From Hexactinellida sp. DTS-2022 (Eukaryota > Porifera > Hexactinellida), in assembly GCA_028753945.1 (NCBI GenBank), contig JAPNXP010000002.1, positions 10,850,001 through 10,914,000 on the forward strand: a stretch of DNA of 64,000 nucleotides. The letters are read 5' to 3'. Shown one piece after another: positions 28,346 to 55,833 of the stretch; positions within the stretch are counted from its first letter, which is position 1; every line of letters begins with the position of its first letter. The notes below the pieces were generated by a model. That model saw only the letters and a program-made list of their open reading frames with translations, was not told the origin of the DNA and made no database searches. Both the position numbers and the translations under genes were made by a program.

Positions 28346-28559
28346 TTAAGTAAAACGGATCAAAGTGTTCAGAACCTACATGGTGGTCTATGCAATGATA
28401 CACTATCCCTAATTTTTGACCATTGTAGATTGGATCACATACTATTAGTTGACCATGGATATAAACATTGTGTAATCCCCAGTTATTGGAATCACTATCG
28501 GATGCAATAATGGAGACGATGTCTATGCCAGCTAAAGCTTCTAACATTATTAATTTCAA
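28346..28559 (-). CDS. Unrecognised short frame in left arm
   Basis: A minus-strand frame opens at 28559 and is identical to the frame opening at 47499 in the right arm until the arms diverge. It contains DIVSIIASDSDSNNWG and HGQLIVCDPIYNG with several cysteines and histidines. I do not recognise it. It could be a fragment of a larger transposon protein. Its reading past 28346 is set by unrelated flanking sequence. Confidence 0.25.
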
Positions 28560-28759
28560 ATCTTATGGAAAAAATATTGAAAACTTTCAATGATACAGAC
28601 TTTTTAGTGTCATCCACCTAAGCCACTTCCATAGGGGACACTTTTTTTGAAACCCCGCTATCTCCAAACACAATTATTGCCATTGCGGAAGTCATATTAT
28701 GACTCATATACCACCTAGAAACAAAATCTCAACGGAATTTGGACAGCTCTCAATTAGTT

Positions 28760-28904
28760 CTATCATATGAGTGCAGCGATTTCATTTGTGACTTTTTATT
28801 TCATTTTATTTAATTTATTGATGATGAAAAAAGTGATGTCCACATTTATTGATGAAAAATTGGACTCATAAGTGATTAAAAGAATTATTGTACTCATATG
28901 ATAG
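28760..28904. mobile_element. 145-bp MITE, CTATCATATGAGT ends (left arm)
   Basis: The ends CTATCATATGAGT are inverted on the right. The matching copy in the right arm is 47154-47298, so it predates the duplication. It is AT-rich and non-coding. Confidence 0.7.
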
Positions 28905-28959
28905 TTTAGAAGTTTCTCCATGCAATGCACAACAATCTACTCTTAATCATTAACAGGAA

Positions 28960-29190
28960 AAACTTATCTATTCCGAAAAATACGATTTTATAGAAGAAAA
29001 ACTTTTCACTGAGTTACCTAGATCGAATATTATTGCATTTTTGCCATCTAGAAGATGAAGTAAATCCGCTGTAAAAAATTTAATTAATTCGGGTAAATAT
29101 ATTTGGTAGAAGTGCTCTAGAGTATACCTGAACCTTAACATTGCATTGATAACTACACAATTCTCTGATAGAATCTTTTGTATAGTCAAT
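28960..29190 (-). repeat. Repeat R1, left outer copy
   Basis: This ~230-bp repeat occurs four times: here, 34492-34740, 38955-39190 and 46869-47095. The outer pair are arm partners; the inner pair are diverged and also inverted to one another. The 73-residue frame here (LPELIKFFTADLLHLL) has no recognised domain and is not kept in the inner copies. Confidence 0.75.
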
Positions 29191-29336
29191 ATCGATCAAT
29201 TTTCAATTAATGTTATATAAAATTAGGTGGTCATTTAGTTCCATATTCACATAATTGGCTGTAACTCGGTAGGAATATGAGTTAGAGAGTCAAACATTGT
29301 TTTGAATAATAGCTGATACAATAGACTATCGGGAAT

Positions 29337-30480
29337 TCAACTAACAATAAATACATTGGTTCTAAATTGCAGGTACCCGGAGGCCTTAACCAAGGCTCCG
29401 CCGGTTGAGGAGGGGGTGCCGCCACAAACCATAGGTTTTAAGCCGGCAGGGTTTTGAACTCGGCTCAACGCAACAAAAAGTTGGCCATGGCTGAAAATAG
29501 CATTCGGAGATGGTAGGAATATGCCCACATTTTCTAACATCTGTCCTTGCCCTTTGTTAATGGTAATACAAAATGCAGGACGAAAAGGGAACTGCCTCCT
29601 TCTGAGCACAAACGGAAAGTCGGAGTCAGATGGAGTCATGGGAATGCGAGGAATTCAAACCCGTTAACACTTATGAACACCTGTAGCAATTTCGGCGTCA
29701 ATAATCCGATTTAGGGATGCTTTTACCGTTAACCGAGTGCCGTTACACATTCCTTGAGTCGGGTCAAGACTACGCAATAAAATTATATACTCAAAAACCT
29801 TAAGGTACAGTCGATGAGGAGGCAAACCATTTGGTGTAATAGAATTTAGGAACTCAGTGGGATACATTGCTGCCTGCTCGTCACCTACCGAGTCTGCGCT
29901 TAACCAGGGTGCTCGCTTCCCCTGGTATCAGGTTCATAACGTATTGATTTATAAACTCAGTGGTATCATTCTTAGGACACATCAAACTACGGCGAGAAAT
30001 ATAATCTGGATTATTATAGTTAACTTTAATATCGCCGTAAGTAGCAGCAACCAAATCAGAAACTGACTCGCCTGCTACTACGAATTTGCGGTCCACGTGA
30101 ATCATATGATTCTCATCCTCGGGCTCAGTGCCTTCTCCAACTATCAAAAGGAATTTGGAGAAGTCACTAACTTGGGAAGCATCACCTGAAGAAAAATTAC
30201 GGAGTCGCATGGTTATAGAGAGTTTAAGAACCTCAACATGACTCCAGAGAGGCGATCTATTCAGACAGGCTGACACAACATCAGCTTCGGTCCCATATCT
30301 GATTACAGGTAGAATTTGACGGAAATCACCTCCAAACACAATAACTTTACCACCGAATGGGATATCGCATGAACAGAGATCTCTCAATGTACGGTCGATA
30401 CACTCTGCAGCATGTCTATGTGTCATAGGATCCTCGTCCCAAACAAACAGTTTCGTGCGCTGAATTAAGGAAATCAATAA
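29337..30480 (-). pseudogene. PIF1-type Helitron helicase C-terminal part (left arm)
   Basis: On the minus strand, frames follow the second half of a Helitron helicase, the enzyme that unwinds DNA during rolling-circle transposition. First is the Walker B region (WDEDPM, where DEAP is usual), then HRHAAECIDRTLRDL and motif III GGDFRQILPV. Later come the MYPTEFLNSI block, a CNGTRL block and the motif V/VI region with INKGQGQ and [12 protein letters not shown]. The ATP-binding Walker A half is missing. A frame change lies near 29900 and stops near 29660. The first ~26 residues of the upstream frame (from 30531) come from MITE sequence. The right arm carries the same lesions, so the gene was dead before it was duplicated. 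Confidence 0.9.
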
Positions 30481-31312
30481 GAAATAGACCCTATTTAGAT
30501 ATTTCGTTATGCCTTCGTCAGAATTGACCATGATTATTAGAATTTGTACTGATCAATATGAATTTTCTATTGAACGAAGCACCAACTTTGAAACAAAATT
30601 GTTTAGATTCTCCCAATTAAGCGGAGTTTGTCCCAATTAAGGAGTAGGATCAAAGGTTTTTTATCCATTTACTATTGTATGTCTCTACAAAGTTTTTGTA
30701 AACGCTCTAATTCTGATTGGCCCGTGACTGGAAGTCTATAAGAAGTCATTCAGAATTTATTCTGGAAGATTCTATTGAATATTCATGTCAGGATAATTCA
30801 TAACGTCCCAAAATCTTAAATAAATTCGGAAAATCGGACAAAAAGACCCCATGGCAACTTTTGTTCATCATGGGTATAAATACACCAGTTATATACTTGC
30901 CATCCTAATTTCACCGTTTAAAATCTTCCGCTGATTGTCTCTGTAAGTTTGAATTAATCTAAAAAGTAATCTGATTGAATTTGACGGACTTTTTGCTGAT
31001 GGTCCATTTTTGACCCCTAAGGGTTGAATTTTGACGTTTTGAATTATCCTGACACGAATATTAAATAGAATCTTCCAGAATAAATTCTGAATGACTTCTT
31101 ATGGACTTCCAGTCACGGGCCAATCAGAATTAGAGCGTTTACAAAAACTTTGTAGAGACATACAATAGAGAATGGAGAAAAAAGCTTTGATTCTACTCCT
31201 TAACCGAAAGATTTAGTATTAGCTTCTATGGAAAGGATTCGGTTCTGAGGGAATTGTCCCAATTAAGCGGTTGTCCCGATTAACCGGTGTCTCAATTAAG
31301 CGGAGTACACTG
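30455..31312 (-). mobile_element. Half of a TA MITE fused to helicase fragment (left arm)
   Basis: The terminal half of the TTAATYGGGAC-rich MITE ends at 31312 with CAGTGTACTCCGCTTAATT (read inward), then TA. It is interrupted by the 559-bp TTAA element. Its inner side runs directly into helicase sequence around 30455-30470, so the other half of the MITE is gone. Partner: 43903-44190. Confidence 0.85.
30641..31199. mobile_element. TTAA fold-back element (family C), left arm only
   Basis: TTAA flanks lie at 30637-30640 and 31200-31203. The ends are GGAGTAGGATCAAAG and, inverted, GGAGTAGAATCAAAG. The inverted repeats extend roughly 200 bp. The right arm has the empty site, a single TTAA inside CTTTCGGTTAATTGGGAC near 44012. 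It is a relative of 24840-25717 and non-coding. Confidence 0.95.
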
Positions 31313-31411
31313 TACTAAAATCTGAACTCTACTAGAGCTGAACGTTTATAAATGATTTGTTAAAATAAAAAAGCCGAAATTAGATTTAAGTTAATAACTC
31401 TATAAATACGA

Positions 31412-31583
31412 TAGAACCTCGTTAGTACGAATATCAGTGGACCGTCAAAATGCGTTTGCCTTATCCGGAATTCGTATTAACCAATATCATTTGTATCGAA
31501 AAGGCTTTGAAGAGAACTGAAATAGGGAATAGTGTTCGTATTATCAGGAATTTTGAATTAACCGTGTTCGTACTAACGAGGTA
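31412..31583. mobile_element. MITE with CCTCGTTAGTACGAA ends
   Basis: The inverted ends are ACCTCGTTAGTACGAA, with TA at both borders. A diverged relative follows at about 31790-32010 (CGTTAATACGAC ... GTTCGTACCAAGGAGGT). Both occur in the right arm (about 43635-43805 and 43205-43430). They are probably pogo/mariner-type MITEs and non-coding. Confidence 0.7.
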
Positions 31584-32226
31584 CTAACTACTGTAGTCTT
31601 GAGTAGTTTAAATGTTGTTAATATATTTACGAAGAGTTTCCATTAGAAACGAGACTTTATTACTTGGTTTTTTTAGGACAATACATTTAACCACCGCCCC
31701 CTCACTGCCCACCCCAATTACACCAATCAACATTCTGTGAGTTATATTTATTTCTCAACAGAACATCTTTATTATTCAAGGTTGAAACTGATTAGTCGTG
31801 TTCGGTTTGAACAAATACTATTTTGAAAATACTACATATAAAATAACCACGTTAATACGACTACTAATTAGCATCAAGATTTTTGTTTACCTTATCCAAA
31901 TTAGTATTAACCGGCATCACTGAAAATCCTTTACAGGATCCAAAAATTGTGTTCACACTAATCGAAAACTTGTATTAACAGTGTTCGTACCAAGGAGGTG
32001 CGAATATCGTTTCGGTATTTGGTTGGGAAGTTAATATATTCGGTTTACCTACTCTAATTTCGGTATTAAATCTAAAAACGATTATGATTACTACTCGGTC
32101 AAGCGTCAACCGAATATCACTTTGAATAAATTGAAAAACTACGTATTCGGCTAGATTATACTTTATTTTCTGCGGTTTTATGACCAGATAGTTTTTTAGA
32201 CCAATACAGACGATTCCCCATTGCCC

Positions 32227-32254
32227 CGAGGCGCGTTAGGCGCCTCGTCCCTAG
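32227..32254 (+). other. GC-rich 8-bp hairpin followed by CTAG (left arm)
   Basis: The perfect stem CGAGGCGC/GCGCCTCG has a GTTAG loop, followed by TCC and CTAG. It stands out sharply from the AT-rich surroundings. A hairpin a few bases before CTAG resembles a Helitron 3' end, but the usual T after CTAG is not present. The partner is at about 42962-42989 in the right arm. Confidence 0.7.
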
Positions 32255-34478
32255 GTGAGCTAATTATCAATACTCTTTATGGTATATTAGAATAATGGTA
32301 GTCATTGGATTTACTTGTTTTGTCCCTTTTGTGTAGAATATTTCGCGTGGCCAATATACGCTATCCATGAAAATTCAAGATTCATAGTTTTTTGAAGATA
32401 AAACTATATTGTTTGATGTAAATTACCCTTTTAGATTTTTGAGGAGATATGCCTTTGCAGTCAGTTATATGTACATTTACGTATTTTGATACTTTTCTTA
32501 TACACATCAATTTTGAATAATTCACAACATGATGTAGTATAACTTGCATTAATTAATATCACATGACCTAATCTATAGTATTAAAGAGTCAACTTGGCCT
32601 AAACCCAGTTATGGATTTGACAAATCCATCTACTCCACAGTTCTGCTTAAACATATAATTTTTCTTAATCAATTTATCCACACTTTCTTCAACAACAGAT
32701 GGAAATAATTCATTTTCTTGCGACCAGGATATTGAAGTTATTCATGATCTAAGCTCTATCGACCTCGACATTCATGTTCTCCAATCTGTTGTGGTTGCTC
32801 TTATTATCTTGAAACCACTAACTGCCATCATTCTATTCAACGATCAACTACTTACTGAAACAAGGATATTGAGATTACAGAGGCTACGAAATATGACCTT
32901 GTAAGATATGTATATATTGATCGTGGTTCTATTAAATGGCCTTCAGATATTGAAACTGAATCAATTGTGGTATTGTTGGAGATATCAATCAAGTTTGATT
33001 AAAATCATGCTTTAAAAAACAATAATATCCCCCGCCTTCTAGAAAAGTGCGAATTCGACTAGCTCAAAACGTATTCGTTGATAAATCTTGCTTAAAGGAA
33101 TATCTCTCATAGTTGTAGAGTTCGGAGGATATTTAGTAATAATATCCACTAAATGCACATTACCTAAAGATATTCGGAAGAAAATTGAAATCAATTATTT
33201 AATAACAAATACTGTGCATAGTAATTCTGTTTTCATTTCACATTTTGTTATTTGAGTACTTATAATATTGCTTGTATGTTAATGGATAACTTATTTCTAG
33301 ATGAATGGATGTCAAATATATGACAATATTACATACTTAGTTTACAGAGTCAAATCCAGGTAAAACAACATAATTCATGTGTAAAGTTCATTACCAATTG
33401 TAATAGGCAAACATATCGAATGCCCTTCTAGTTCATTCATGGTCCATTTTTTATTGTCGTTTCCAGTCCTTATCTATAGTAGTTCATGGTGTGGCATAAT
33501 GCATAGTACTAATGTAGTAGAGTTAAACTTGCACTATAATAGAACTTGCGCCAAATAGAGTAAATAGCTAGAATTTAGATTGACTAGTATGGATTCACTA
33601 TTAGGCAAAATTTCAACTATGAATATCTAATTCAAATATTTCGATTTTAGAAATTCTGAGTTTCTACGTCCTTCTTAGAAAAACTAGTACTGTCCAAAAA
33701 CGGAATAATATTTGTTGGTTATCGGGTGTCGAAAGTTTGCCATTGAATCTCCTTTAAAAATCTTCCCGAATTACATATGTCCTCATTAGCTTAGACTTGT
33801 TTTCAAAGAATTTGGACCAAATTTGAGAAAAACTGAACCAAAAGTATATAAATTTAATATAAATATGACCTTTTCATGATGATGCACACATTCCTGCACT
33901 AAACAGGTGAAACAGCAAAAGGAGGGCTCAGATTCACTTGAAATTTTCAATGTATCTACACTTCACTGGGTACTATACCATAACAGTCTAATCTAAATTA
34001 CCAAATTAACCAAAGAGGGGCCCTAAGGGCGCATCCAGTTGTTTATTTTGGTAATAATAATTATTTATCGTCAAAAGTATCCTAACAGTACCCTCAAATT
34101 CCACTCCCTCAATTTACCTTCATTTATGAGCCTAAAATGGGGAAAACGATTTTTTGGTGCAATGACTGTCAAAGATTCCAAATTGATAAATTATTGGTTT
34201 CAGGACGTTTCCAGTTGATTCTCATTATTATTATTATTATTATCGTTAAAGGTGTCCTAACAGTACCTCTGAAATTTCTCTCCCTCAATTTACATTTATT
34301 TAAGAGACTAAATCCAGAAAAACCATTTTTTGTGTGCAATGACTGTCAAATACTCCCAAAATGATAAATTAGAGGTTTAAGGACGTTTCCAGTTGTTTCT
34401 TTTGATAATAATTATAATTATTCGTCAAAAGCGTTCTAACAGTTACCCAGAAATTCCACTTACTCAATTTACATTCAT
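32255..34478. other. Left arm interior without a gene
   Basis: No gene is seen. Between about 33860 and 34480 three related blocks of ~140 bp (with TGCAATGACTGTCAAA and CCTAACAGTACC words) repeat in tandem. The 75-residue frame at 34137-34364 is carried by this repeat and is identical in the other arm, but has no recognised domain. Confidence 0.5.
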
Positions 34479-34491
34479 TTAAGAGCTTAAG

Positions 34492-34740
34492 GTTCAGGTA
34501 TCCTCTAGAGTACTTCTACCATAAGTATCTACCCGAATGAATTAATTTTTTTACAGAGGATTTACTTCATCCTCAGGATGCCAAAAATACAATAATATTG
34601 GCAAATAAACTAATAGAGGAAAAAACTTTTTTTAAATTTTACCATTTTTGCGGAATAGATCAATCAGAAAAGATAAACAATTCCAAGAATATTATTGATA
34701 AAATGTGTTTAGCTGGATGTAATATAACTTTTGAGTACAG
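34492..34740 (+). repeat. Repeat R1, left inner copy
   Basis: A diverged copy of R1 immediately inside the left arm. Its inverted counterpart is 38955-39190 on the other side of the spacer, so weaker inverted homology continues past the clean arm boundary. Confidence 0.65.
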
Positions 34741-34752
34741 GAATTGTGAATA

Positions 34753-35297
34753 TAGTCTACTCCGCTAAATTGGGACACGTTTGTTCCAGGCCTCTTGTCC
34801 CAATTAAGCGGAGAACCCAATTAACCGAAAATATTCTGTAAAGTAGTAATCTACCTACGATTTACAACAATTTTAGTTTTAAACATGTTATAACGATTCC
34901 ACCAATGCCTGCGGAAACTTGTTTCTACTCAAACGCATAGTATGACCCTTAATATTCTGTGGACTGTTTAAATTATGCCTGAACCAAAGTTCATAATCCC
35001 ATGTGAATTTCGATTTACACAATTCAATAATAAAATTGGTCCTATTTATATATTTGTCATGCCTTAATGAGAATTGACCAAGATTATTTAAATTTGTTTT
35101 GATCAATATTAACTTTATATTTTTCGAGCTCAATTTTGTACCCAATTTGTTGATTTTGTCCCAATTAAGCGGAGTTTGTCCCGATTAACCGAATATTTTA
35201 GTATTAGCTTCTATGGAAAGGATTCTGTTCTTGGGGAGTTGTCCCAATTAAGCGGCTGTCCCGATTAACCGGTGTCCCAATTAAGCGGAGTACACTG
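34753..35297. mobile_element. TA-flanked MITE, pogo/mariner-like
   Basis: TA flanks lie at 34751-34752 and 35298-35299. The left end has lost its first C (TAGTCTACTCCGC) and the right end is CAGTGTACTCCGCTTAATT read inward. The family's TTAATYGGGAC words are present at both ends. It lies in the palindrome spacer. The frame at 34888-35145 belongs to the MITE and is not a gene. Confidence 0.88.
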
Positions 35298-37259
35298 TAT
35301 CTACATTTTTCTGGATTTCAAATACTTTTATGTGATGCTTATCCAAAATCCAAAAAACAGATGAACTATACATATTAGGGTAAATCGCAGCACTGAAAAG
35401 TTGTATCTTTACGAGATCTCTCCGAAACCATTGAGTTTTTGATTCTACGACCAAAATTGACAAAATGACTTCTTCCGCAATTCTGAAAATGTTAGTTTTG
35501 AGATAGCGGCTTTTGAAAAATATTTTTACAGCAATTATTTCTAAATTGAGGTGACCTAAGTGTGTCAAACTGGAAAAATAATAGGAATCTTTCTTAGAAA
35601 TCTCTTGAGAGTACTCATTGGTATCAATACAATCCCAAAATGCAATAAAATCGAAATAGACAATGATTTGGATTTTATCTAAATATTCGAAATTTGTCGA
35701 CTGCCAATTTTGCATTATTTCGACGTTTTATGTAATATGCGGTCCAAGGTCAAACTTCAGAAATATAGAATTCTGAAAGTTTGTATGCTAGAGGTTATTT
35801 TGAAAAAGCCCCGAACTACATCTGTCATCACTAGTTTAGACTTGGTTTCAAACAATTTGGACCAAATTTGCAATAGTTGACAAAAAGTAAATATATTTTT
35901 AACTTACTTTTCACATTATTATGAGCATATCCCGGTGAATATATAGGATAACAATCTTTTCGATAATGGTTTCAATTGGTAATCTAATGAGTTTGCAATA
36001 TTACATGGATGTGATTGGAAATTTAGTGCTAAGCTCTAGAGTTTATAGTTCTCAAGAAAAGAATATGCTAAATCATCAAAAATGGGAACATTTTATGCCC
36101 ATATATGGTCATTTGGAAAAATGTCCGAGTTATGGTCATAAAATGTATTATGGAGGGTTAGGAAACCGGGTATTGCGAGAATTTTGCACTCAAATTTTAT
36201 TTATTGGTCAACGTGTTTCTGAGATACAAAATAGAGATGTGAAAGCACAATCCAATGAGTTGAAAAGTCAGAAAGTTTAAAATGCTAAAGCGTCTACAGT
36301 TTTTATCCAAATTGTTTCAAACCAAGTGTAACCTAATGAATATATATTTACTTTGGTAATGACCCTTGATCTAAACTTTACAATGCAAACTTTCAGCGTT
36401 ACTGCCCTTTGAAGTCAGATAATGCACCTTGACAGTCTAAATATGACTTCAAATGACTATAACTCCGAATTAAATTTTTCGAATGTTGAAAGTTTTGGTT
36501 TACAACCTTATCAGATATGCAAATATACTTATGTATGAATAACAACGAAATTGAGAACAAATTATGGCAGTGCGAGCCTACAAACCTTCTATTCCATTTG
36601 AAAAAGTCACCCTCCATGATGTCCATTACAATCCCGGGTCTTATAATGGTCGCTATAGCAAAACTATTTGTCAGATTCAACTGAAACCTTCAATGTGGCA
36701 ATTATTTAAAGTGTACTTTTCAAAAACAATCCAATCGCAATTTATCTGATTAGCATTGTGTGGCCGTAATTTTTAATTCTGTTAATTTGGCCATATAACA
36801 GACATTTCCCAATTTCACATAGCCCTAGTGAGTTCAATTGTCCTCAGAATTAAGCCCAATTTTCCTATATTTTCCTCCTGAGTTAATTAATGCATTTTCG
36901 AAATTGTATGAATACACATGTGTACTCTCACAGAATTCCTTTGAAAATTCCATTTATTTCTCCAATTTGACTCACCTCGAGTTTTGAATGGAAATAAAGG
37001 GGTTCTGGTATAGGTAGCTGTATAGCATAGAAATAGATAATTCCGGTGCATTGCCACATATAGCTTTTATCTTATATTTGGATAGAAGAGCATATGTCGC
37101 ATCTTAATTTCAAATCCTTTGGAAAATATTGTACCTTTCAATGATACAGACTTTTTAGTATCCTCCACCTAAGCCATTTCCATCGGGGGTCACTTTGTTC
37201 AAATCCCGCTAATCTCCAAACACAATAATTACAACTTTTGAGTCGTGCTATTTAGTCTA
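35298..37259. repeat. Spacer with a family E repeat copy
   Basis: From about 35740 to 36900 the sequence matches 37264-38825 and, inverted, 1-883. It includes the core module with AGTGCTAAGCTCTAG near 36025-36040. The frames at 35281-35715 and 35966-36280 are repeat-derived and show no domain. No gene is seen. Confidence 0.6.
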
Positions 37260-37263
37260 TTAA

Positions 37264-38825
37264 GGCCAAACTATACTCAAGAATGATATTGAGATTATGA
37301 TCTTTTTGGATAGTACCCTATAAAATAAACCAGCATGTAAAATTTCAGGTGTTTCTGACTCATACTTTCGAAGTTGCGACCTTTTTAGAGCTTAGGAATG
37401 TATGCATCATCATCAAAAGCTCAGTTTTCAAATGGACGATCATAACTTTTGGTCTAGATTTCACAGATTTGGTTCAATATGATTGAAACCAAGTTTAAAT
37501 GATTGAATACATATGTTCCTTTATAGAAATACGTTTTTTAACACTTCCGAAAAAAACTTTCAGAGTTACAGCACTTTGAAGTCAGATTTCTACCGCCAAC
37601 CTATAACATTTCGATGTTTGGCAGTCAAAGACTGACTTCAATGGGCTGTTACTCTGAAAGTTTTTGTCGGAAGTGTTAAAAAACGTATTTCTATAATGGA
37701 ACATATGTATTCATTCATTCAAACTTGGTTTCGAACATATTGAACCAAATTTGTGGAATCTAGACCAAAAGTTATAATGGTAGGTTTTTACATACACCAC
37801 TATTTTGACTCAAATCAAATGAATTTATATGTTTATAACTATTTTGCAAATGCTTTCATCAGTTTTTCATATGAGTTGGTAATAGTACATAGATGTGAAT
37901 ACAAAGTTAGTGCTAAGCTCTAGAGTTTATAGTTTTCGAGAAAAATATTTGAAAATCATCAAAAATGGGCACACTTTATGCCCATATATGGTCATTTGGA
38001 AAAATTGTGCGAGTTAGGGTCTCAAAATGTATTATTGAGGGATAGTAAACCGGGTATTGGGATCATTTTGCACTCAAAATTTTATTTATTGGTCTACGGG
38101 TTACTGAGATTCAAAATAGAAAAGTGAAAGGACCACCCAATGAGTTGAAAGGTCAGAAAGTTTCAATTACTTGAGCGTTCACAGTTTTTATCCTAATTGT
38201 TTGAAACCAAGTGTAAACTAATGAATATATATTCAATTTGGGAATGACCCTTGATCTAAACTCTACAATGCGAACTTTCAGAGTTCCAGCCCTTTGAAGT
38301 CTGACTTGGCACAATGACAATCCAAATCTGACTTTAAATGACTATAAATCAGAATTTTTCGATTAGAATGTTGAAAATTTTGGTTTAGATCCTAAGTATA
38401 TATGCAAAGATACTATTGGATGAATTACAACGAAATTGATAGTAAATTATGGCAGTGCGAGCCTACAAACTTTTTAACCCATTTGAAAAAGTCACCCTCC
38501 ATGATGTCCATCACATTCCAGGATCTTATAAAGGTCGCTACAGCAAAACTAAGGGTCAGATTCACCTGAAATTTGAAATGTAGGTATACTTTACAGGGTA
38601 CTATCCAAAAACAATCGAATCTCAATTTATCTGACGAGCATTGTGGGGCCGTAATTTAAATTTTCGTCCGAAATTGGCTATATAACAGGGAATTCCTGGG
38701 TCACAGAGCCCTACTGACTTCAAATCTACTCAGAATTCAAAAAATTTTTGCCAGATTATCTAACAGTGTGAAACAAACAGGAAAACGAATTTAACTCATT
38801 TTCCCATTTGCAGTATAGTTTGGCC
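37264..38825. mobile_element. TTAA element (family E) with long inner fold-back
   Basis: TTAA flanks lie at 37260-37263 and 38826-38829. The ends GGCCAAACTATACT are exact inverted repeats. Inside, 37441-37585 pairs with 37634-37776 to form a stem of roughly 145 bp with a short loop. The right half carries the family-E block with the AGTGCTAAGCTCTAG core word near 37909-37923. It is non-coding. Confidence 0.9.
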
Positions 38826-39318
38826 TTAAGAATACTTCATGTGTATTTTGGATTTTGCATCAGGAAATCTTCGTTTGAAGGTCGACATCGCACAAAAGTA
38901 TTTCAAATCAATTTTAATGTAGATATTCACATTTCCTAGACTTAAAAGTTATATTACATCCAGCTAAACACATTTTTTCAATAATATTATTATTCTTGTT
39001 TATCATTGCTAATAGATCTATCCGCAAACATGCTAAAATATAAAGAAAAATATTCCTCTCCCAGTGTATTTGCCAATACTATTGTATTTTTGGCATCCTG
39101 AATATGAAGTAAATCCGCTGTAAAAATTTCAATTAAATTGGGTAAATATCTTTAGTAGAAATGCTCTACAGGATACCTAAACCTTAATTAAGTCTATAAC
39201 TTTGTATTACATTTGAACATCGACCCGTCTTATGTACATGAACAACTAATAAGGACCATTTCGAAGGATCGTTTTTTCTCTACGACTTATAATCTTTAAG
39301 ATACACAAAATAAGTATA
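38826..39318 (-). repeat. Right edge of spacer, with R1 right inner copy
   Basis: R1 occupies about 38955-39190 on the minus strand. The remaining bases up to 39318 have no counterpart at the left edge. No gene is seen. Confidence 0.55.
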
Positions 39319-39331
39319 CTTAAGCTCTTAA

Positions 39332-40733
39332 CGCTGTTTCCGCCCATCGAGATGGAGTGAGTATATACAACACACTACTCGTTTATCCTAGTAAGCCAAT
39401 ATTTTCAGTTCTATAAGGAGTGTATATGTAAGCTATTTTAAGACTACTAGTGCTCTAATTTAAGGCTTCTAAGTACAGATTTTTTTTGAAATTCTATATT
39501 TAAGCTCCCATATAGAATAATATAGTACTAAAAGCTTACTTTTGAAGAATTGATAAAGATTACAAAAATGTGATTCGGTCTAATCCATTCTATCAGATGT
39601 CCTTGAGGTCCTCTGGGAAGGTGCTAATATCAAAAAGTCAAATTTTTCATCGGAATTGGTCGATTCTAGGAAAAACGGACGGTTTTTCAACATTTGAGCC
39701 ACATTTTTGCTCCCAAAGGTGTCTAGAATTTAATTAAGTACGAAATCGGACAATCGGAACTCAAACAGGTCTTAGTTTACATATTATGGTGCTATATTCC
39801 AAATCTCAGCGATATAACTTCAAAAAGTTCCCCAAAACTAAGCTTTGAAAATAGTGGCATGCTATAATTAGTTACGGTGGTTTTCAAGTGGCAGAGAGGA
39901 TTTGCGACACGTCTACAGCGAAGAATATTGATTCGGGAAGGAATTAAAATCGGCCATCTTGCTGGAATTCAATCACTGATAGTGCCTGAAAGTTAGAACT
40001 AAGCTCCAGTTAGCTTTTGAATTTGGATTTTCTCAATTTTGATGATTACATGACACTCCTTATATGGGCATTCGAGATTATTAGCAAGGTAACCATTTGG
40101 TTTTGAGTGATTTTTGACTTTGCAATGATTTAGAAATGATATATCAATGTGATTAGTAATTTAGAGCTAAGCTCTAGAGTCTCCCGTTTAGGAGATACAA
40201 ATTTGCATGTGTCATCAAAATTGGTCACATTCACACTACCATATAGGGCAATATCGAAAACGGTGCGTCCTAGGCTCACAAAATGTATTATTCACATATG
40301 GGAAACCATGTGTTCTGATCATTTTTCACTAGTCTAACTTGAATTTATCTCTTTTCCTCTCTGAGTTACAAATTAGTTAAGAATCCGTACCCTGAAGACC
40401 GCCGAAAGGCTATAACTTTTGCAATTTCCACTTTTATCTAAAAATTTTTGTTGAGTTTTGCAAAAATTTTGTCAGACTATCATAAGTCTGAATATTGAAA
40501 CGTTGTAAATACAATAAATAGTTATTTTAACGTGGGCAACACCTTTGGAGTTATAAAACCGCGTTTTAATATCAAAAGCTACTCTACTAAAACAGTCATA
40601 ACTCGGGAAATAATGTTCGGATCGATGAAAACCCAAGTCTCCTCGATAGATACCATCCTTCCGCAGTGTCTGTAAAAATATCGTAAAAATTTGAACATTT
40701 CAAATTACAAAGCGAAAATGGACGGAAACAGCG
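39332..40733. mobile_element. 1.4-kb TTAA element (family B), right arm only
   Basis: TTAA flanks lie at 39328-39331 and 40734-40737. The ends are CGCTGTTTCCG, inverted on the right. The empty site is TTAA at 34479-34482 in the left arm. It is a close relative of 45267-46669. Core words GAACTAAGCTCC (about 39996) and TAGAGCTAAGCTCTA (about 40162-40176) lie inside, facing each other. It is non-coding. Confidence 0.95.
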
Positions 40734-40737
40734 TTAA

Positions 40738-42961
40738 ATGAGTGTAAATTGAGTTAGTGGAATTTCTGGGTAACTGTTAGAACGCTTTTGACGAATAATT
40801 ATAATTATTATCAAAAGAAACAACTGGAAACGTCCTTAAACCTCTAATTTATCATTTTGGGAGTATTTGACAGTCATTGCACACAAAAAATGGTTTTTCT
40901 GGATTTAGTCTCTTAAATAAATGTAAATTGAGGGAGAGAAATTTCAGAGGTACTGTTAGGACACCTTTAACGATAATAATAATAATAATAATGAGAATCA
41001 ACTGGAAACGTCCTGAAACCAATAATTTATCAATTTGGAATCTTTGACAGTCATTGCACCAAAAAATCGTTTTCCCCATTTTAGGCTCATAAATGAAGGT
41101 AAATTGAGGGAGTGGAATTTGAGGGTACTGTTAGGATACTTTTGACGATAAATAATTATTATTACCAAAATAAACAACTGGATGCGCCCTTAGGGCCCCT
41201 CTTTGGTTAATTTGGTAATTTAGATTAGACTGTTATGGTATAGTACCCAGTGAAGTGTAGATACATTGAAAATTTCAAGTGAATCTGAGCCCTCCTTTTG
41301 CTGTTTCACCTGTTTAGTGCAGGAATGTGTGCATCATCATGAAAAGGTCATATTTATATTAAATTTATATACTTTTGGTTCAGTTTTTCTCAAATTTGGT
41401 CCAAATTCTTTGAAAACAAGTCTAAGCTAATGAGGACATATGTAATTCGGGAAGATTTTTAAAGGAGATTCAATGGCAAACTTTCGACACCCGATAACCA
41501 ACAAATATTATTCCGTTTTTGGACAGTACTAGTTTTTCTAAGAAGGACGTAGAAACTCAGAATTTCTAAAATCGAAATATTTGAATTAGATATTCATAGT
41601 TGAAATTTTGCCTAATAGTGAATCCATACTAGTCAATCTAAATTCTAGCTATTTACTCTATTTGGCGCAAGTTCTATTATAGTGCAAGTTTAACTCTACT
41701 ACATTAGTACTATGCATTATGCCACACCATGAACTACTATAGATAAGGACTGGAAACGACAATAAAAAATGGACCATGAATGAACTAGAAGGGCATTCGA
41801 TATGTTTGCCTATTACAATTGGTAATGAACTTTACACATGAATTATGTTGTTTTACCTGGATTTGACTCTGTAAACTAAGTATGTAATATTGTCATATAT
41901 TTGACATCCATTCATCTAGAAATAAGTTATCCATTAACATACAAGCAATATTATAAGTACTCAAATAACAAAATGTGAAATGAAAACAGAATTACTATGC
42001 ACAGTATTTGTTATTAAATAATTGATTTCAATTTTCTTCCGAATATCTTTAGGTAATGTGCATTTAGTGGATATTATTACTAAATATCCTCCGAACTCTA
42101 CAACTATGAGAGATATTCCTTTAAGCAAGATTTATCAACGAATACGTTTTGAGCTAGTCGAATTCGCACTTTTCTAGAAGGCGGGGGATATGATTGTTTT
42201 TTAAAGCATGATTTTAATCAAACTTGATTGATATCTCCAACAATACCACAATTGATTCAGTTTCAATATCTGAAGGCCATTTAATAGAACCACGATCAAT
42301 ATATACATATCTTACAAGGTCATATTTCGTAGCCTCTGTAATCTCAATATCCTTGTTTCAGTAAGTAGTTGATCGTTGAATAGAATGATGGCAGTTAGTG
42401 GTTTCAAGATAATAAGAGCAACCACAACAGATTGGAGAACATGAATGTCGAGGTCGATAGAGCTTAGATCATGAATAACTTCAATATCCTGGTCGCAAGA
42501 AAATGAATTATTTCCATCTGTTGTTGAAGAAAGTGTGGATAAATTGATTAAGAAAAATTATATGTTTAAGCAGAACTGTGGAGTAGATGGATTTGTCAAA
42601 TCCATAACTGGGTTTAGGCCAAGTTGACTCTTTAATACTATAGATTAGGTCATGTGATATTAATTAATGCAAGTTATACTACATCATGTTGTGAATTATT
42701 CAAAATTGATGTGTATAAGAAAAGTATCAAAATACGTAAATGTACATATAACTGACTGCAAAGGCATATCTCCTCAAAAATCTAAAAGGGTAATTTACAT
42801 CAAACAATATAGTTTTATCTTCAAAAAACTATGAATCTTGAATTTTCATGGATAGCGTATATTGGCCACGCGAAATATTCTACACAAAAGGGACAAAACA
42901 AGTAAATCCAATGACTACCATTATTCTAATATACCATAAAGAGTATTGATAATTAGCTCAC
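40738..42961. other. Right arm interior without a gene
   Basis: Mirror of 32255-34478. It contains the same three ~140-bp blocks (40738-41340) and no gene. The 75-residue frame at 40852-41079 is the partner of 34137-34364. Confidence 0.5.
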
Positions 42962-42989
42962 CTAGGGACGAGGCGCCTAACGCGCCTCG
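42962..42989 (-). other. GC-rich hairpin with CTAG (right arm)
   Basis: The arm partner of 32227-32254, with the same 8-bp stem and GTTAG loop on the minus strand. Confidence 0.7.
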
Positions 42990-43204
42990 GGGCATGGGGA
43001 ATCGTCTGTATTGGTCAAAAAAACTATCTGGTGATAAAACCGCAGAAAATAAAGTATAATCTAGCCGAATACGTAGTTTTTCAATTTATTCAAAGTGATA
43101 TTCGGTTGACGCTTGACCGAGTAGTAATCATAATCGTTTTTAGATTTAATACCGAAATTAGAGTAGGTAAACCGAATATATTAACTTCCCAACCAAATAC
43201 CGAA

Positions 43205-43805
43205 ACGATATTCGCACCTCCTTGGTACGAACACTGTTAATACAAGTTTTCGATTAGTGTGAACACAATTTTTGGATCCTGTAAAGGATTTTCAGTGATG
43301 CCGGTTAATACTAATTTGGATAAGGTAAACAAAAATCTTGATGCTAATTAGTAGTCGTATTAACGTGGTTATTTTATATGTAGTATTTTCAAAATAGTAT
43401 TTGTTCAAACCGAACACGACTAATCAGTTTCAACCTTGAATAATAAAGATGTTCTGTTGAGAAATAAATATAACTCACAGAATGTTGATTGGTGTAATTG
43501 GGGTGGGCAGTGAGGGGGCGGTGGTTAAATGTATTGTCCTAATAAAACCAAGTAATAAAGTCTCGTTTCTAATGGAAACTCTTCGTAAATATATTAACAA
43601 CATTTAAACTACTCAAGACTACAGTAGTTAGTACCTCGTTAGTACGAACACGGTTAATTCAAAATTCCTGATAATACGAACACTATTCCCTATTTCAGTT
43701 CTCTTCAAAGCCTTTTCGATACAAATGATATTGGTTAATACGAATTCCGGATAAGGCAAACGCATTTTGACGGTCCACTGATATTCGTACTAACGAGGTT
43801 CTATC
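43205..43805. mobile_element. Two CCTCGTTAGTACGAA-type MITEs (right arm)
   Basis: Arm partners of the two MITEs at 31412-31583 and about 31790-32010. The better-preserved one is at about 43635-43805. Confidence 0.65.
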
Positions 43806-43902
43806 GTATTTATAGAGTTATTAACTTAAATCTAATTTCGGCTTTTTTATTTTAACAAATCATTTATAAACGTTCAGCTCTAGTAGAGTTCAGATTTTAG
43901 TA

Positions 43903-44190
43903 CAGTGTACTCCGCTTAATTGAGACACCGGTTAATCGGGACAACCGCTTAATTGGGACAATTCCCTCAGAACCGAATCCTTTCCATAGAAGCTAATACT
44001 AAATCTTTCGGTTAATTGGGACAAACTCCGCTTAATTGGGAGAATCTAAACAATTTTGTTTCAAAGTTGGTGCTTCGTTCAATAGAAAATTCATATTGAT
44101 CAGTACAAATTCTAATAATCATGGTCAATTCTGACGAAGGCATAACGAAATATCTAAATAGGGTCTATTTCTTATTGATTTCCTTAATTC
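43903..44190 (+). mobile_element. Half of a TA MITE fused to helicase fragment (right arm)
   Basis: TA at 43901-43902, then CAGTGTACTCCGCTTAATT and repeated TTAATYGGGAC words. After about 44185 the sequence becomes helicase. The empty TTAA (near 44012) of the left arm's 559-bp insertion lies here. Confidence 0.85.
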
Positions 44191-45266
44191 AGCGCACGAA
44201 ACTGTTTGTTTGGGACGAGGATCCTATGACACATAGACATGCTGCAGAGTGTATCGACCGTACATTGAGAGATCTCTGTTCATGCGATATCCCATTCGGT
44301 GGTAAAGTTATTGTGTTTGGAGGTGATTTCCGTCAAATTCTACCTGTAATCAGATATGGGACCGAAGCTGATGTTGTGTCAGCCTGTCTGAATAGATCGC
44401 CTCTCTGGAGTCATGTTGAGGTTCTTAAACTCTCTATAACCATGCGACTCCGTAATTTTTCTTCAGGTGATGCTTCCCAAGTTAGTGACTTCTCCAAATT
44501 CCTTTTGATAGTTGGAGAAGGCACTGAGCCCGAGGATGAGAATCATATGATTCACGTGGACCGCAAATTCGTAGTAGCAGGCGAGTCAGTTTCTGATTTG
44601 GTTGCTGCTACTTACGGCGATATTAAAGTTAACTATAATAATCCAGATTATATTTCTCGCCGTAGTTTGATGTGTCCTAAGAATGATACCACTGAGTTTA
44701 TAAATCAATACGTTATGAACCTGATACCAGGGGAAGCGAGCACCCTGGTTAAGCGCAGACTCGGTAGGTGACGAGCAGGCAGCAATGTATCCCACTGAGT
44801 TCCTAAATTCTATTACACCAAATGGTTTGCCTCCTCATCGACTGTACCTTAAGGTTTTTGAGTATATAATTTTATTGCGTAGTCTTGACCCGACTCAAGG
44901 AATGTGTAACGGCACTCGGTTAACGGTAAACACATCCCTAAATCGGATTATTGACGCCGAAATTGCTACAGGTGTTCATAAGTGTTAACGGGTTTGAATT
45001 CCTCGCATTCCCATGACTCCATCTGACTCCGACTTTCCGTTTGTGCTCAGAAGGAGGCAGTTCCCTTTTCGTCCTGCATTTTGTATTACCATTAACAAAG
45101 GGCAAGGACAGATGTTAGAAAATGTGGGCATATTCCTACCATCTCCGAATGCTATTTTCAGCCATGGCCAACTTTTTGTTGCGTTGAGCCGAGTTCAAAA
45201 CCCTGCCGGCTTAAAACCTATGGTTTGTGGCGGCACCCCCTCCTCAACCGGCGGAGCCTTGGTTAA
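44121..45266 (+). pseudogene. PIF1-type Helitron helicase C-terminal part (right arm)
   Basis: The partner of the left-arm fragment. The frame opening at 44121 has 216 residues identical to the left arm: residues 1-26 are MITE-derived, then Walker B (WDEDPM, 31-36) and motif III (GGDFRQILPV, 67-76). After a frame change near 44750 the YPTEFLNSI and CNGTRL blocks follow. A further change near 44990 leads to the INKGQGQ and [12 protein letters not shown] blocks. The fragment is broken downstream by the 1.4-kb TTAA element. The lesions match the left arm, so this is a dead copy of a dead fragment. Whether the 216-residue frame is expressed cannot be told from sequence. Confidence 0.9.
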
Positions 45267-46669
45267 CGCTGGTTCCTACTATAAACGCATTAGTGAGTAT
45301 CTATAACTATCTACTCGTTTATCCTAGTAAGCTAATACTTCCTAATCTATAAGGACATAGTGTATAGGCTATTTTAAGACTGCTAGCGCTATAATATAAG
45401 GCTTCTAAGCACTGATTTTTTTTGAAATTCTATATTTAAGCTCCCATATAGAAGAATATAGTACTAAAGGCTTAGTTTTGAAGAATTGATAAAGATTACA
45501 AAAATTTGAATCGGTTAAATCCATTCTTCCATTTCCCCTTGAGTTACTCTAGGAAGGTGCTAATATCAAAAAGTCAAATTTTTCCGTCGGAATTGCTGGA
45601 TTTATGAAAAAACGGACGGTTTTCCACATTTGAGCCACTTTTCTGCTCTCAAAGGGCCCAGGTTTGTAAATAAGGACGAATTCGGAAAATCGGAACCGTA
45701 ACAGGTCTAAGTTTACATACTATAGTGCTATATTCCAAATTTCAGCGTTATAACTTCAAAAAGTTCCCCAAAACTAAGCTTTAAAATTGTGGCATGCCAT
45801 AATTAGATATGGTGGTACTCAGGTGGCAGAGAGGATTTTCGACACGTCTACAGGGAAGAATATTGATTTGGGAAGGAATTAAAATCGGCCATCTCGCTGG
45901 AATTCAATCACTGATAGTGTCTGAAAGTTAGAACTAAGCTCCAGTTCACTTTCGAATTTGCATTTCTCTCTTTCGATGGTCACATGACAACTCCATATAT
46001 GGGCATTCGAGATTATTAGGAAGGTAACCATTTGGTTTTGAGTGATTTTAGACATTGCAATGATTTCGAGATGATATATCAATGTGATTAGTAATTTAGA
46101 GCTAAGCTCTAGAGTCTCTCGTTTAGAAGTTTCAAATATGCATGTGTCATCAAAATTGGGCACATTCACACTACCATATAGGGCATTTTTGAAAACGGGG
46201 CCTCCTAGGCTCACAAAATGTATTATTTGCATATGGGAAACCATGTATGCTGATGATTTTTCACTAGTGCAATTTTAATTTATCTCCTTTCCTCTCCGAG
46301 TTACAAATTAGTTAAGAATCCGTACCCTGAAGATCGCCGAAGGGCTATAACTTTTGAAATTTCCACTTTTTCCTAAAGATTTTTGTTGAGTTGTGCAAAA
46401 AATTCCTCAGACTATCATATGTCTGAATATTGAAACGTTGTAAATACAATAAATAGTTATTTTAACGTGGGCAACACCTTCGGAGTTATAAAACCGAGTT
46501 TTAATATTAAATGCCGCTCTTCTAAAACAGTCATAACTCTGGTAATAATGATCGGATCGATGAAAACCCTAGTCCCATCGAAAGATACCATCCTTCCGCA
46601 GTATCTATGAAAATATTGTAAAAATTTGGACATTTCTAATAATGGGCGATTACAAGGCGGAACCAGCGT
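45267..46669. mobile_element. 1.4-kb TTAA element (family B), right arm only
   Basis: TTAA flanks lie at 45263-45266 and 46670-46673. The ends CGCTGGTTCC are inverted. The empty site is the single TTAA in GGCCTTAACCAAGG near 29383 of the left arm. Its interior matches 39332-40733, including the facing core words near 45930 and 46097-46111. The 121-residue frame at 45879-46244 spans that inverted module and has no recognised domain. Confidence 0.95.
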
Positions 46670-46868
46670 TAAGGCCTCCGGGTACCTGCAATTTAGAACC
46701 AATGTATTTATTGTTAGTTGAATTCCCGATAGTCTATTGTATCAGCTATTATTCAAAACAATGTTTGACTCTCTAACTCATATTCCTACCGAGTTACAGC
46801 CAATTATGTGAATATGGAACTAAATGACCACCTAATTTTATATAACATTAATTGAAAATTGATCGATA

Positions 46869-47095
46869 TTGACTATACAAAAGATTCTATCAGAGAATTG
46901 TGTAGTTATCAATGCAATGTTAAGGTTCAGGTATACTCTAGAGCACTTCTACCAAATATATTTACCCGAATTAATTAAATTTTTTACAGCGGATTTACTT
47001 CATCTTCTAGATGGCAAAAATGCAATAATATTCGATCTAGGTAACTCAGTGAAAAGTTTTTCTTCTATAAAATCGTATTTTTCGGAATAGATAAG
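46869..47095 (+). repeat. Repeat R1, right outer copy
   Basis: Partner of 28960-29190, with the same 73-residue unrecognised frame. Confidence 0.75.
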
Positions 47096-47153
47096 TTTTT
47101 CCTGTTAATGATTAAGAGTAGATTGTTGTGCATTGCATGGAGAAACTTCTAAA

Positions 47154-47298
47154 CTATCATATGAGTACAATAATTCTTTTAATCACTTATGAGTCCAATT
47201 TTTCATCAATAAATGTGGACATCACTTTTTTCATCATCAATAAATTAAATAAAATGAAATAAAAAGTCACAAATGAAATCGCTGCACTCATATGATAG
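47154..47298. mobile_element. 145-bp MITE, CTATCATATGAGT ends (right arm)
   Basis: Arm partner of 28760-28904. Confidence 0.7.
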
Positions 47299-47498
47299 AA
47301 CTAATTGAGAGCTGTCCAAATTCCGTTGAGATTTTGTTTCTAGGTGGTATATGAGTCATAATATGACTTCCGCAATGGCAATAATTGTGTTTGGAGATAG
47401 CGGGGTTTCAAAAAAAGTGTCCCCTATGGAAGTGGCTTAGGTGGATGACACTAAAAAGTCTGTATCATTGAAAGTTTTCAATATTTTTTCCATAAGAT

Positions 47499-47723
47499 TT
47501 GAAATTAATAATGTTAGAAGCTTTAGCTGGCATAGACATCGTCTCCATTATTGCATCCGATAGTGATTCCAATAACTGGGGATTACACAATGTTTATATC
47601 CATGGTCAACTAATAGTATGTGATCCAATCTACAATGGTCAAAAATTAGGGATAGTGTATCATTGCATAGACCACCATGTAGGCTCTGAACACTTTGATC
47701 CGTTTTACTTAATAACTCAATAA
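47499..47723 (+). CDS. Unrecognised short frame in right arm
   Basis: Identical to the left-arm frame until the arm boundary at 47712, after which it ends in four unrelated residues. No family is recognised. It may be a fragment of a larger protein cut by the duplication boundary. Confidence 0.25.
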   Translation: MKLIMLEALAGIDIVSIIASDSDSNNWGLHNVYIHGQLIVCDPIYNGQKLGIVYHCIDHHVGSEHFDPFYLITQ

Positions 47724-47729
47724 GGTTAT

Positions 47730-47960
47730 ATCAGTATTGAGATCCATCTGACTATTCTATTGTGTTGGGGAGTGATTCAGCTGTATATCATAGCTGTATG
47801 CCCACAGTTGCAGTGTACTATCTACTGTAGTGTGATTCTCCTGATGGATGTGAATGAGATCCCTCTGACCATTCTTTTGTGCTCAATTGAATTGGTTAGG
47901 GAGTGATACAGCTTTGTTTCATGACTGTATGCCACAGTTATAGTTGATGTATTCTGTTGT
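47730..47960. repeat. Diverged tandem duplication, ~115-bp unit
   Basis: Two related units start near 47732 and 47846. Each holds GAGATCC(A/C)TCTGAC, GGGAGTGAT(T/A)CAGCT and CTGTATGCC(C)ACAGTT in order. No gene is seen. Confidence 0.65.
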
Positions 47961-48022
47961 GATCCATTTTGTGATTAAAATTATTCACTCATCCCAATGA
48001 CTCCAATTGAGCTATTAAAAGT

Positions 48023-48052
48023 GCAGAAAACAGTGCTAATACTGTTTTCTGC
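48023..48052. other. Perfect 12-bp hairpin
   Basis: GCAGAAAACAGT and its exact complement are separated by GCTAAT and followed by a C run. It could be an RNA or cruciform hairpin; no role is assigned. Confidence 0.6.
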
Positions 48053-48411
48053 CCCCCGACAAAATGGATCATATTGGCACTAGGCTCGGGGAAAGGTACT
48101 GGACATGTCCCAAGTGTGTCCGTTCTATTATAGAATGACCCTGAGGGACCGATGTTATACATTAATATATTCCCATCATGTAGTTACATTTAGTTAGTAA
48201 CAACCTACTATATTTTAGATAAACAACAAATGTGCAATGCGCTAAGTGGGACCTCGCCCAATTTCGTTTTGGATAAGCGGACCATGCAGGTATAATTAAT
48301 GTGGTACATTAACTCAACCACGCGAATTTAATTACCTTGCAAGATTTTTTATTTATTCTCATAAGTCATAACTACTAATTCTATTACCGCCTACTTTTAT
48401 TTACTAATTAG
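48053..48411. other. Non-coding stretch
   Basis: No gene or recognised repeat is seen between the hairpin and the repeat-bearing frame. Confidence 0.4.
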
Positions 48412-48900
48412 ATGACTTGTGAACTAGACATTAGTCTAGAGGACATATTAGGAGATGATTCTCCTGATGTCACTGCTATTACCCCTGCTGTCAGCCCTGC
48501 TATTACCCTAGATGTCCCTGCTATACCCCTGCTGTCGCTATTACCCCTGCTGTCACTGCTATTACCCCTGCTGTCAATGCTATTAACCCTGCTGTCACTG
48601 ATATTACCCCTGCTGTCACTGCTATTACCCCTGCTGTCACTGCTGTCACTACTGCAACCCGAGCCACTCCTCTTAGGCCATTTGGGCCAAGAGGTAGGAG
48701 AGGTAGGAGAGCGAGAAGGCGACACAACAGGGGAGGTCTATCTATTATCCCGCCCGCTAGATTCCGGAACCCTGGCGTATGGGCCAAACAAGTACGCTTT
48801 TTATGGGTCCTTGAATTAATTATCAGGTTTGTTACTGCAGAAGTTACTAGAACTTCTCTTTGTTTAACGAATCACAACCCAGAATGAATTTAAGCGCGCG
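48412..48900 (+). pseudogene. Repeat-bearing frame with arginine-rich patch, one frameshift
   Basis: An ATG frame opens with an acidic start (MTCELDISLEDILGDDSPD) and runs into seven-residue repeats of the TPAVTAI type, encoded by a 21-bp tandem repeat (about 48465-48650). A one-base loss near 48521 throws the ATG frame into leucine/proline repeats. In the other frame the TPAV repeats continue into RPFGPRGRRGRRARRR and then FRNPGVWAKQVRFLWVLELI before a stop near 48884. The switch point inside the repeat suggests slippage. I do not recognise the family; a nucleic-acid-binding structural or transposon protein is possible. The minus-strand frames here are shadows. Confidence 0.45.
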
Positions 48901-48974
48901 TTAAGTAGTGTGTGTAATATACTAGCCACAGGTTAACTTATTTATTAATATTACTGTGTTTTAGAGGAGGAAAA

Positions 48975-49043
48975 GGCCGCAAAGCGGCCATTAATTGCAT
49001 GGCGTAGTGCCTAACACGAACGAACAAAGGTCGCGAAGCGACC
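48975..49043. other. Pair of GC-rich three-base-loop hairpins
   Basis: GGCCGC-AAA-GCGGCC (48975-48989) and GGTCGC-GAA-GCGACC (49029-49043) are two perfect 6-bp stems with related stem sequence, 39 bp apart in AT-rich DNA. They lie just downstream of the repeat-bearing frame. Transposon-end hairpins or structured RNA are both possible. Confidence 0.65.
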
Positions 49044-49404
49044 GAGATCGAAGGGCTCGTATTAGTATATTCATACTGTAATCCAAATAGTGTACACATA
49101 CTATGCATATAAGAACATTAATCAATACGTCAGCCCATGGCCTACTTAATATACGTACGGCTATATACATTGGCGCCGGAACTCATTTGTATCAGGGTGG
49201 GTATACTTCCCAAATATACATAAAATTAAACATTTTTTCAATAAGACTAATAACGAGAATACACGTTTTTTGATTATAACTATAAGGAATACCTCTATAA
49301 GGAACTTTGAGGCTGAAATTGACAAAATATAAAGGAACTTCAGCCTGAAATTTTAATTAGTGTTCGTTATTAAAAAAACGTGTAACTAAAAGAAATTATA
49401 TACT
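49044..49404. other. Non-coding stretch
   Basis: No gene is seen. A short inverted echo occurs near 49295-49345 (AAGGAACTTTGAGGCTGAAATT and its partial repeat AAGGAACTTCAGCCTGAAATT). Confidence 0.4.
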
Positions 49405-51584: not shown

Positions 51585-52181
51585 ATAATCATTAATTAGA
51601 AACCTCCAGAGGGGTTATAGATAACATATACTTGTTATACATTCTAAATGTCTATGAACTTACAAAATTTGGTGACAAATTGTGCCTATTATACTAAATA
51701 GACCTATTATACTAAATAGATATTATTTAGTCTAATATCCTCTTTCGGGTATTTCCCAGTGTGAAATTATTACATCTAGAATTTACAAAAGCAAGTGGCA
51801 GGCAAGTGGAGCTGTTCACTTCAATTCTACGTCATCAATACAATTTCTGAAAATTTTGATTTTTTGATTGAAATCGATAGAGAGTACTAAACCATGTCTG
51901 AAACCGAATTTTCTTGTAATTTGAATTATTTGATCGACCTGTTTTCCTCCTGTTACAACATGTATCAGTTAGGCAGTCTACAGTTAAGATCGCGAAAATT
52001 GGAATCCTTTCCTATACCGTAACATTAATTTGTGATTTAAGCGTATGGAAATTGGATCAGACCAGGAATAGGAGCGTATTTACAAATGGCTGTATTATAA
52101 ACTGTTGCCTATTATAACAGTTGGAAGCTTATGCTTCAAAAACTTTCTATTCCCAATCAGGGTGATACAATCCGGGCCATT
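51585..52181. mobile_element. Family A end piece and flanking non-coding DNA
   Basis: From about 51700 to 51983 the sequence matches the minus-strand interior of 9801-10482 and ends CCTAGGCAGTCT-like, with the family-A terminus CTGTAGACTGCC read inward and TTAA at 51984-51987. No left end was found, so the copy is truncated. The rest shows nothing recognisable. Confidence 0.55.
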
Positions 52182-54499: not shown

Positions 54500-54502
54500 T
54501 GT

Positions 54503-55821: not shown

Positions 55822-55833
55822 CAGGCTTGGGGC

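Follow-up and report, generated by a model that had tools for sequence, protein, structure and literature searches.

A near-perfect inverted duplication of mobile-element sequence with TTAA ends in a hexactinellid sponge genome

How do two copies of one sequence come to face each other a few kilobases apart on a chromosome, and what keeps them alike? This question is raised by a near-perfect inverted repeat in a 64,000-nucleotide stretch of the genome of Hexactinellida sp. DTS-2022 (Porifera; GCA_028753945.1, contig JAPNXP010000002.1, here C11:10850001-10914000), hereafter the window, to which all coordinates given without a contig name refer. The assembly comprises 112.4 Mb in 18 contigs (C1-C18), and C11, the contig holding the palindrome, makes up 14% of it. 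A first-pass annotation, made from the letters of the window alone, described an inverted duplication with ~5.58-kb arms around a ~4.8-kb spacer. With modest confidence, we favor the view that this is an inverted segmental duplication formed at TTAA sites, which later received insertions, probably underwent gene conversion, and is one of several on C11.

A base-by-base alignment of the arms, with the edges checked separately, bears out the described geometry. The left arm (28346-34491, + strand) consists of 5583 bp plus a 563-bp insertion, starting with TTAA (28346-28349) and ending with TTAA and a further G (34487-34491). The right arm (47712-39319, - strand) consists of 5582 bp plus two 1406-bp insertions and carries TTAA at 47709-47712 and 39320-39323. 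Without the three TTAA-flanked inserts, the arm lengths match to within a few bases, as the annotation had stated. The spacer between them (34492-39318, no strand) spans 4827 bp and is made up of TTAA elements together with fragments. Inserts excluded, the arms are 99.8% identical, differing by nine substitutions (28374, 29720-29721, 31672, 32182, 32198, 33024, 34461, and 34474) and one 1-base indel (32221). A plain BLAST alignment stops the arm at 34482/40734 because one right-arm insert, C, lies within 13 bp of the inner edge; in the right arm, the final 13 bases common to both arms are found beyond this insert. Chance cannot explain a 5.6-kb match at 99.8%. The long inverse arms, their identity above 99%, and a spacer shorter than the arms are the features of a large palindrome, and the structure is a real intrachromosomal inverted segmental duplication.

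The outer flanks reveal which arm was copied. The right outer flank (47713-48185) is Helitron-family sequence that runs unbroken from the arm, with 92.9% identity to the copy designated C15 and 90.9% to that designated C11b. Helitron homology crosses 47712 into the flank in ten aligned copies, extending furthest (to 48185) in these two, and the sequence left of 28346 does not resemble this Helitron-family flank. Because Helitron sequence continues past 47712 and not past 28346, the right arm is the parental and the left arm the derived copy. The same crossing bears on the proposal that the whole 19.4-kb structure is one giant TTAA transposon, the 5.6-kb arms being its terminal inverted repeats, a proposal suggested by TTAA at both outer edges (28346-28349 and 47709-47712). 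The right outer edge is not an element end, given the unbroken Helitron homology, and the listed genome matches beyond the window span no more than parts of the arm; we therefore rejected this candidate as very improbable. A longer left arm hidden by a later insertion was rejected as well: in a comparison of the right flank (47713-52000) with the entire sequence left of 28346, the first 1.3 kb of the flank went unmatched, and the matches beyond look like interspersed repeats.

Both ends of the left copy are TTAA and are joined there to unrelated sequence. The outer join reads ...AATC/TTAAG..., and at the inner end TTAAG precedes the intact end of a TTAA element, T1. Comparison of the right arm's inner edge (39180-39360) with the spacer yields no significant match (best E 0.042). 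We estimate the chance of one join falling at TTAA at ~1-4%, depending on the slack allowed, and the occurrence of TTAA at both joins is suggestive without being proof. These joins also speak to the possibility that an assembly artefact created the palindrome, either two haplotypes wrongly joined, a worry raised in the first-pass annotation, or a head-to-head chimaera from amplification. Whole-genome amplification is known to generate inverted chimaeras, and gene stretches sampled at other inverted pairs in this assembly, described below, are identical in six of six cases. An allelic copy, however, should have the right arm's flanks, and the left copy instead has two novel joins, both at TTAA, with neither flank continuing that of the right arm; the haplotype mis-join is consequently unlikely. 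Three complete elements, moreover, are each present in one arm only, substitutions have arisen in both arms, and the 4.8-kb spacer keeps the two apart. Taken as a whole, the artefact is improbable.

We propose that the duplication began when a TTAA site was broken in the manner of TTAA transposases. Repair would have copied neighboring sequence using TTAA as microhomology, or would have proceeded through a fold-back that later lost its center. Either route would have copied the 5.58-kb mosaic of mobile elements beside a Helitron relic in reverse, ~4.8 kb away, as the left arm. Three young elements, one in the left arm and two in the right, would subsequently have inserted at TTAA; their arm-specificity is observed and their later timing is probable. 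Finally, arm-to-arm gene conversion probably wiped substitutions from the arm interiors.

The first-pass annotation had noted few substitutions and three clean insertions between the arms, and each insert indeed lies between copies of TTAA. Insert A (30641-31199, + strand; TTAA at 30637-30640 and 31200-31203), present only in the left arm, is a 559-bp TTAA element with ~178-bp terminal inverted repeats. Inserts B (45267-46668, + strand; TTAA at 45263-45266 and 46669-46672) and C (39332-40733, + strand; TTAA at 39328-39331 and 40734-40737), present only in the right arm, are 1402-bp elements 88.7% alike, C lying no more than 13 bp from the inner edge. Genome searches returned six other close copies of insert A at 99-100% identity (one truncated), five of insert B at 99%, and, using insert C minus its last 17 bases, six of insert C at 98-99% (one starting at base 152) together with a shorter 98% piece. 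Among the relatives retrieved for comparison (five of six for A, three of five for B, and three of six for C), TTAA flanks insert A on both sides in all five, as in the window, and these full-length, dispersed copies, set in different flanks, have the properties expected of a TTAA DNA transposon. For insert B, two of three relatives are flanked by TTAA and one by TTCA; for insert C, with one end visible, one of three has TTAA and the other two TTAT and TTAC. No insert was matched to a transposase. With flank columns excluded, the substitutions private to the window copies number one in A, four plus a 1-base deletion in B, and two in C, counts that set an upper bound on the age of insertion. 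All three inserts are young full-length elements.

Were the arms, as the first-pass annotation suggested, kept alike by gene conversion, or is a recent fold-back duplication, its simpler option, sufficient? We compared the arms with three yardsticks. First, private substitutions number 7 in 3351 insert bases versus 9 in 11180 arm bases, that is, ~2.6 times more in the inserts (binomial P 0.054). Second, the ratio of insertions to substitutions is 3:9 in the arms; for private changes it is 6:419 across ten Helitron copies (P 0.0012) and 3:160 across the pair of these that lie on C11 (P 0.0044). The ten copies were drawn from 39, for the most part by their scores across a 0.6-kb match, and the counts were taken across 4.2 kb, including insertions above 100 bp and skipping columns with fewer than seven copies and alignments below 88%; insertions in the Helitron copies were counted by size and are not all demonstrated mobile elements. 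Third, of eight difference sites, three are no more than 31 bp away from an arm edge (P ~1e-4 in a post hoc test). These three indirect tests, weak to moderate and each small or post hoc, lean towards conversion that reset the arm interiors and spared the edges, making gene conversion between the arms plausible but unproven.

Under the simpler option, the inverted duplication is very recent and involved no gene conversion, so that the 0.16% difference reflects a short time and the inserts a current burst. Such recency is consistent with inserts almost identical to copies elsewhere, with the few private substitutions in inserts A (one) and C (two), and with polarised changes about equally shared by the arms: derived changes occur on the right arm at 28374, 29720-21, and 32198 and on the left arm at 31672, 32182, and 33024 (at 33024, a base was available from two of three relatives; 34461 and 34474 are unpolarised). 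Three insertions against nine substitutions, however, is a ratio ~20-fold that of the Helitron copies, insert B alone has accumulated four private substitutions in ~1400 columns, and the arm differences cluster at the edges. Little as the arms differ, the 3:9 ratio and the edge clustering weigh against a recent fold-back, which we consider a possible, rather unlikely account of the locus.

The palindrome does not appear to stand alone. Beyond it, we found five inverted pairs on C11 and one on C5, five of the six through matches to a piggyBac-type transposase. That search returned 57 rows representing 39 loci, 23 of them on C11, and among these loci seven neighboring pairs lie less than 30 kb apart. 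Five of the seven are inverted: four on C11 (4928457-4939727, 5004065-5009963, 8869725-8876298, and 10780310-10786222; hereafter the 4.93-, 5.00-, 8.87-, and 10.78-Mb pairs), the members of which diverge from the center, and one on C5 (2680771-2692341, at 2.68 Mb), the members of which converge. Both members have equal scores in four of the five inverted pairs (the exception being the 8.87-Mb pair) and in neither of the two direct pairs. As a control, reverse-transcriptase matches (150 rows, with 150 of 608 candidates scored; 13 of the rows on C11; read by eye) include one equal-score inverted pair within 30 kb, also on C11 (4807035-4810541; the 4.81-Mb pair). Inverted reverse-transcriptase neighbors with unequal scores occur on other contigs too (e.g., C12 and C13), as expected from chance insertions.

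Short stretches at mirrored positions were compared. Within the transposase, they are identical in all five pairs (100 to 251 bases). Outside it, at 1 to 3 kb, four of six stretches are identical (the 10.78-Mb pair at both 1 and 3 kb, the 5.00-Mb pair, and the C5 pair); the 8.87-Mb pair is ~95% identical there, and the 4.93-Mb pair is unrelated at 2 kb. One kilobase inwards, the 10.78-Mb pair is unrelated. The 4.81-Mb reverse-transcriptase pair is identical over 80 bases and unrelated 1 kb outwards. Over all six pairs, 10 of 14 mirrored stretches are identical, one is ~95% identical, and three are unrelated, the gene stretches being identical throughout. The 4.81- and 4.93-Mb pairs could be merely two inverted copies of one element, and the similar gaps at two transposase pairs (3574 and 3558 bases) hint at a fold-back element family rather than independent duplications. 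C11 is rich in recent duplications, some of them inverted, and the palindrome seems to be one of a set on this contig.

Several observations count against the history that we favor, that is, inverted duplication at TTAA followed by insertion and conversion. TTAA is frequent here (589 in the 64-kb window and 64 in the 6146-bp left arm), so coincidence could account for its presence at both joins. Later trimming of an originally longer copy is possible, because the left inner edge is the intact end of T1 and T1 is without its far end. The B/C family does not keep strictly to TTAA as its target. TTAA elements of the piggyBac type can excise without trace, and precise excision could imitate arm-specific insertion; the earlier statement that the arms were hit separately draws strength from the completeness of the three elements and from their close relatives elsewhere and fails if the elements were lost by precise excision. 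Regarding conversion, a current burst of elements would likewise lift the insertion-to-substitution ratio, changes scored as private may already have been in the source copies of the inserts, and the edge-clustering test was devised after the data had been seen. The analysis covered the assembly of a single genome, in which conversion events are not directly visible. Direct near-identical repeats also occur on C11, and inverted copying is thus not the sole mode of duplication there.

What was duplicated is a mosaic of mobile DNA, comprising a broken Helitron-type helicase, miniature elements, and repeats. The 216-residue frame reported as the same in both arms is identical in the left (29881-30531, - strand) and right (44121-44771, + strand) copies and encodes a PIF1-like helicase fragment (Pfam PF05970, E 6.9e-37). 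Stops and frame changes interrupt the helicase frame, which belongs to a broken Helitron-type element. Helitrons are marked by a Rep-helicase gene, a 5' TC end, and a 3' CTRR end; the arms resemble these rolling-circle elements in the PIF1-like fragment, ~92-95% like other genome copies, and differ in holding only a broken internal piece; no Helitron termini turned up where the arms end, although no search aimed at them or at the Rep part was made. In the left arm, the Helitron-type pieces lie at 28346-28555 (85-89%) and 29385-30468 (92-95%), as judged from the main alignments with ten other copies, and between them sits a ~590-bp miniature element (28550-29138; right arm ~46920-47508). Further inwards follow a repeat at 31303-32557, with copies 84-90% alike in long alignments, a ~936-bp repeat (32553-33488; right arm ~41728-42663) with many genome-wide copies at 91-98%, and, at the inner edge, 2.5 copies of a 176-bp tandem repeat (34034-34485; right arm 40735-41182).

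The arm, the ~590-bp element, and T3 (below) were each searched against the genome through listings of best candidates. For the arm, 42 matches are listed, of which 39 lie elsewhere in the genome, two are right-arm pieces, and one is the query. For the ~590-bp element, 32 of the 39 other copies among the best candidates are on C11. No host gene was found in the arms, only repeat and mobile-element sequence, although a short spliced gene could escape detection. Elsewhere in the window, open frames in its GC-richer right end (54501-61587) match DUF6570, DUF4371, and AAA domains and are probably further mobile elements.

The spacer begins with T1 (34491-35700, + strand), the left end of which is intact at the arm edge and the right 16-20 bp of which are missing; another repeat is nested inside it at ~34754-35337. 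The adjoining 35692-37264 has a 96.5% copy on C12. There follow T3 (37260-38829), a ~1570-bp TTAA element with an inverted-repeat center, and 38826-39187, within which 38923-39187 resembles inverted T1 (83%). C12 has the same spacer order without T3 and with ~710 additional bases in the last part, stopping a few bases from 39324. We rejected the spacer as a single transposon at the palindrome center, since its two ends do not match and T1 is without its right end; the palindrome center may have been deleted after T1 inserted. Copies of T3 are concentrated on C11, which has 32 of the 38 others among the best candidates listed and 14% of the genome. Three direct T3 copies (8.649, 8.653, and 8.657 Mb), 4094 bases apart at C11:8649128-8658886, suggest a recent tandem duplication, and further direct near-equal repeat pairs on C11 lie at 11.13 Mb (the ~590-bp element) and 11.17 Mb (from the insert C search).

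Two other features of the assembly were recorded. A ~212-bp satellite, in mirror orientation at starts relative to ends, is common to four (C4, C11, C6, and C18) of five contig ends sampled over 600 bases each; the fifth, the start of C1, carries another repeat, of 408 bp. The stretches inspected showed no short telomere repeat. The uL3 ribosomal protein is encoded by a single intronless 392-codon open frame (1426-2604 of stretch L041), either the gene itself or a retrocopy. It matches vertebrate PDB chains best and those of fly and worm next, which makes an animal host most likely; a search for mitochondrial COX1 did not find it.

The best-known palindromes are those of sex chromosomes. For the human Y and X and for willow, large inverted repeats are described with arms more than 99% identical, more than one to a chromosome (PMC3723533, PMC8981503, PMC7023750). 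The present palindrome shares with these the large inverted repeat, arm identity above 99%, and the presence of several on one chromosome. It differs in that its arms hold mobile-element relics, with no testis, sex, or fertility genes found in them, and in that conversion here is only inferred. Its similarity to TTAA-target transposons, namely the piggyBac type and associated miniature elements, lies in the three inserts and the spacer parts bounded by TTAA in the window; the duplicated arm itself has TTAA ends but no terminal inverted repeats that we could see, and is not a transposon.

A broader and speculative extension, which we consider unlikely, is that C11 has been built up by recurrent inverted duplication at TTAA breaks made by piggyBac-type transposases, with conversion preserving the palindromes on a poorly recombining contig, perhaps a sex chromosome. 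Being self-complementary, a TTAA overhang would allow head-to-head joining of sister ends or the priming of copying from neighboring DNA, and some of the resulting palindromes would carry transposase in both arms. A literature search, which covered few subscription papers, yielded no report of a link between piggyBac or TTAA and inverted duplication.

The palindrome is thus of a known kind in a new place, and the palindrome-rich contig and the possible TTAA-transposase origin are its interesting part. As a single locus it is modest; as one of a set on a chromosome rich in mobile elements, it is more notable. Several near-identical palindromes of mobile DNA on one chromosome would show that selection at the gene level is not needed for such structures to originate and last. 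Should TTAA breaks initiate them, the birth of palindromes would be linked to a common transposon family.

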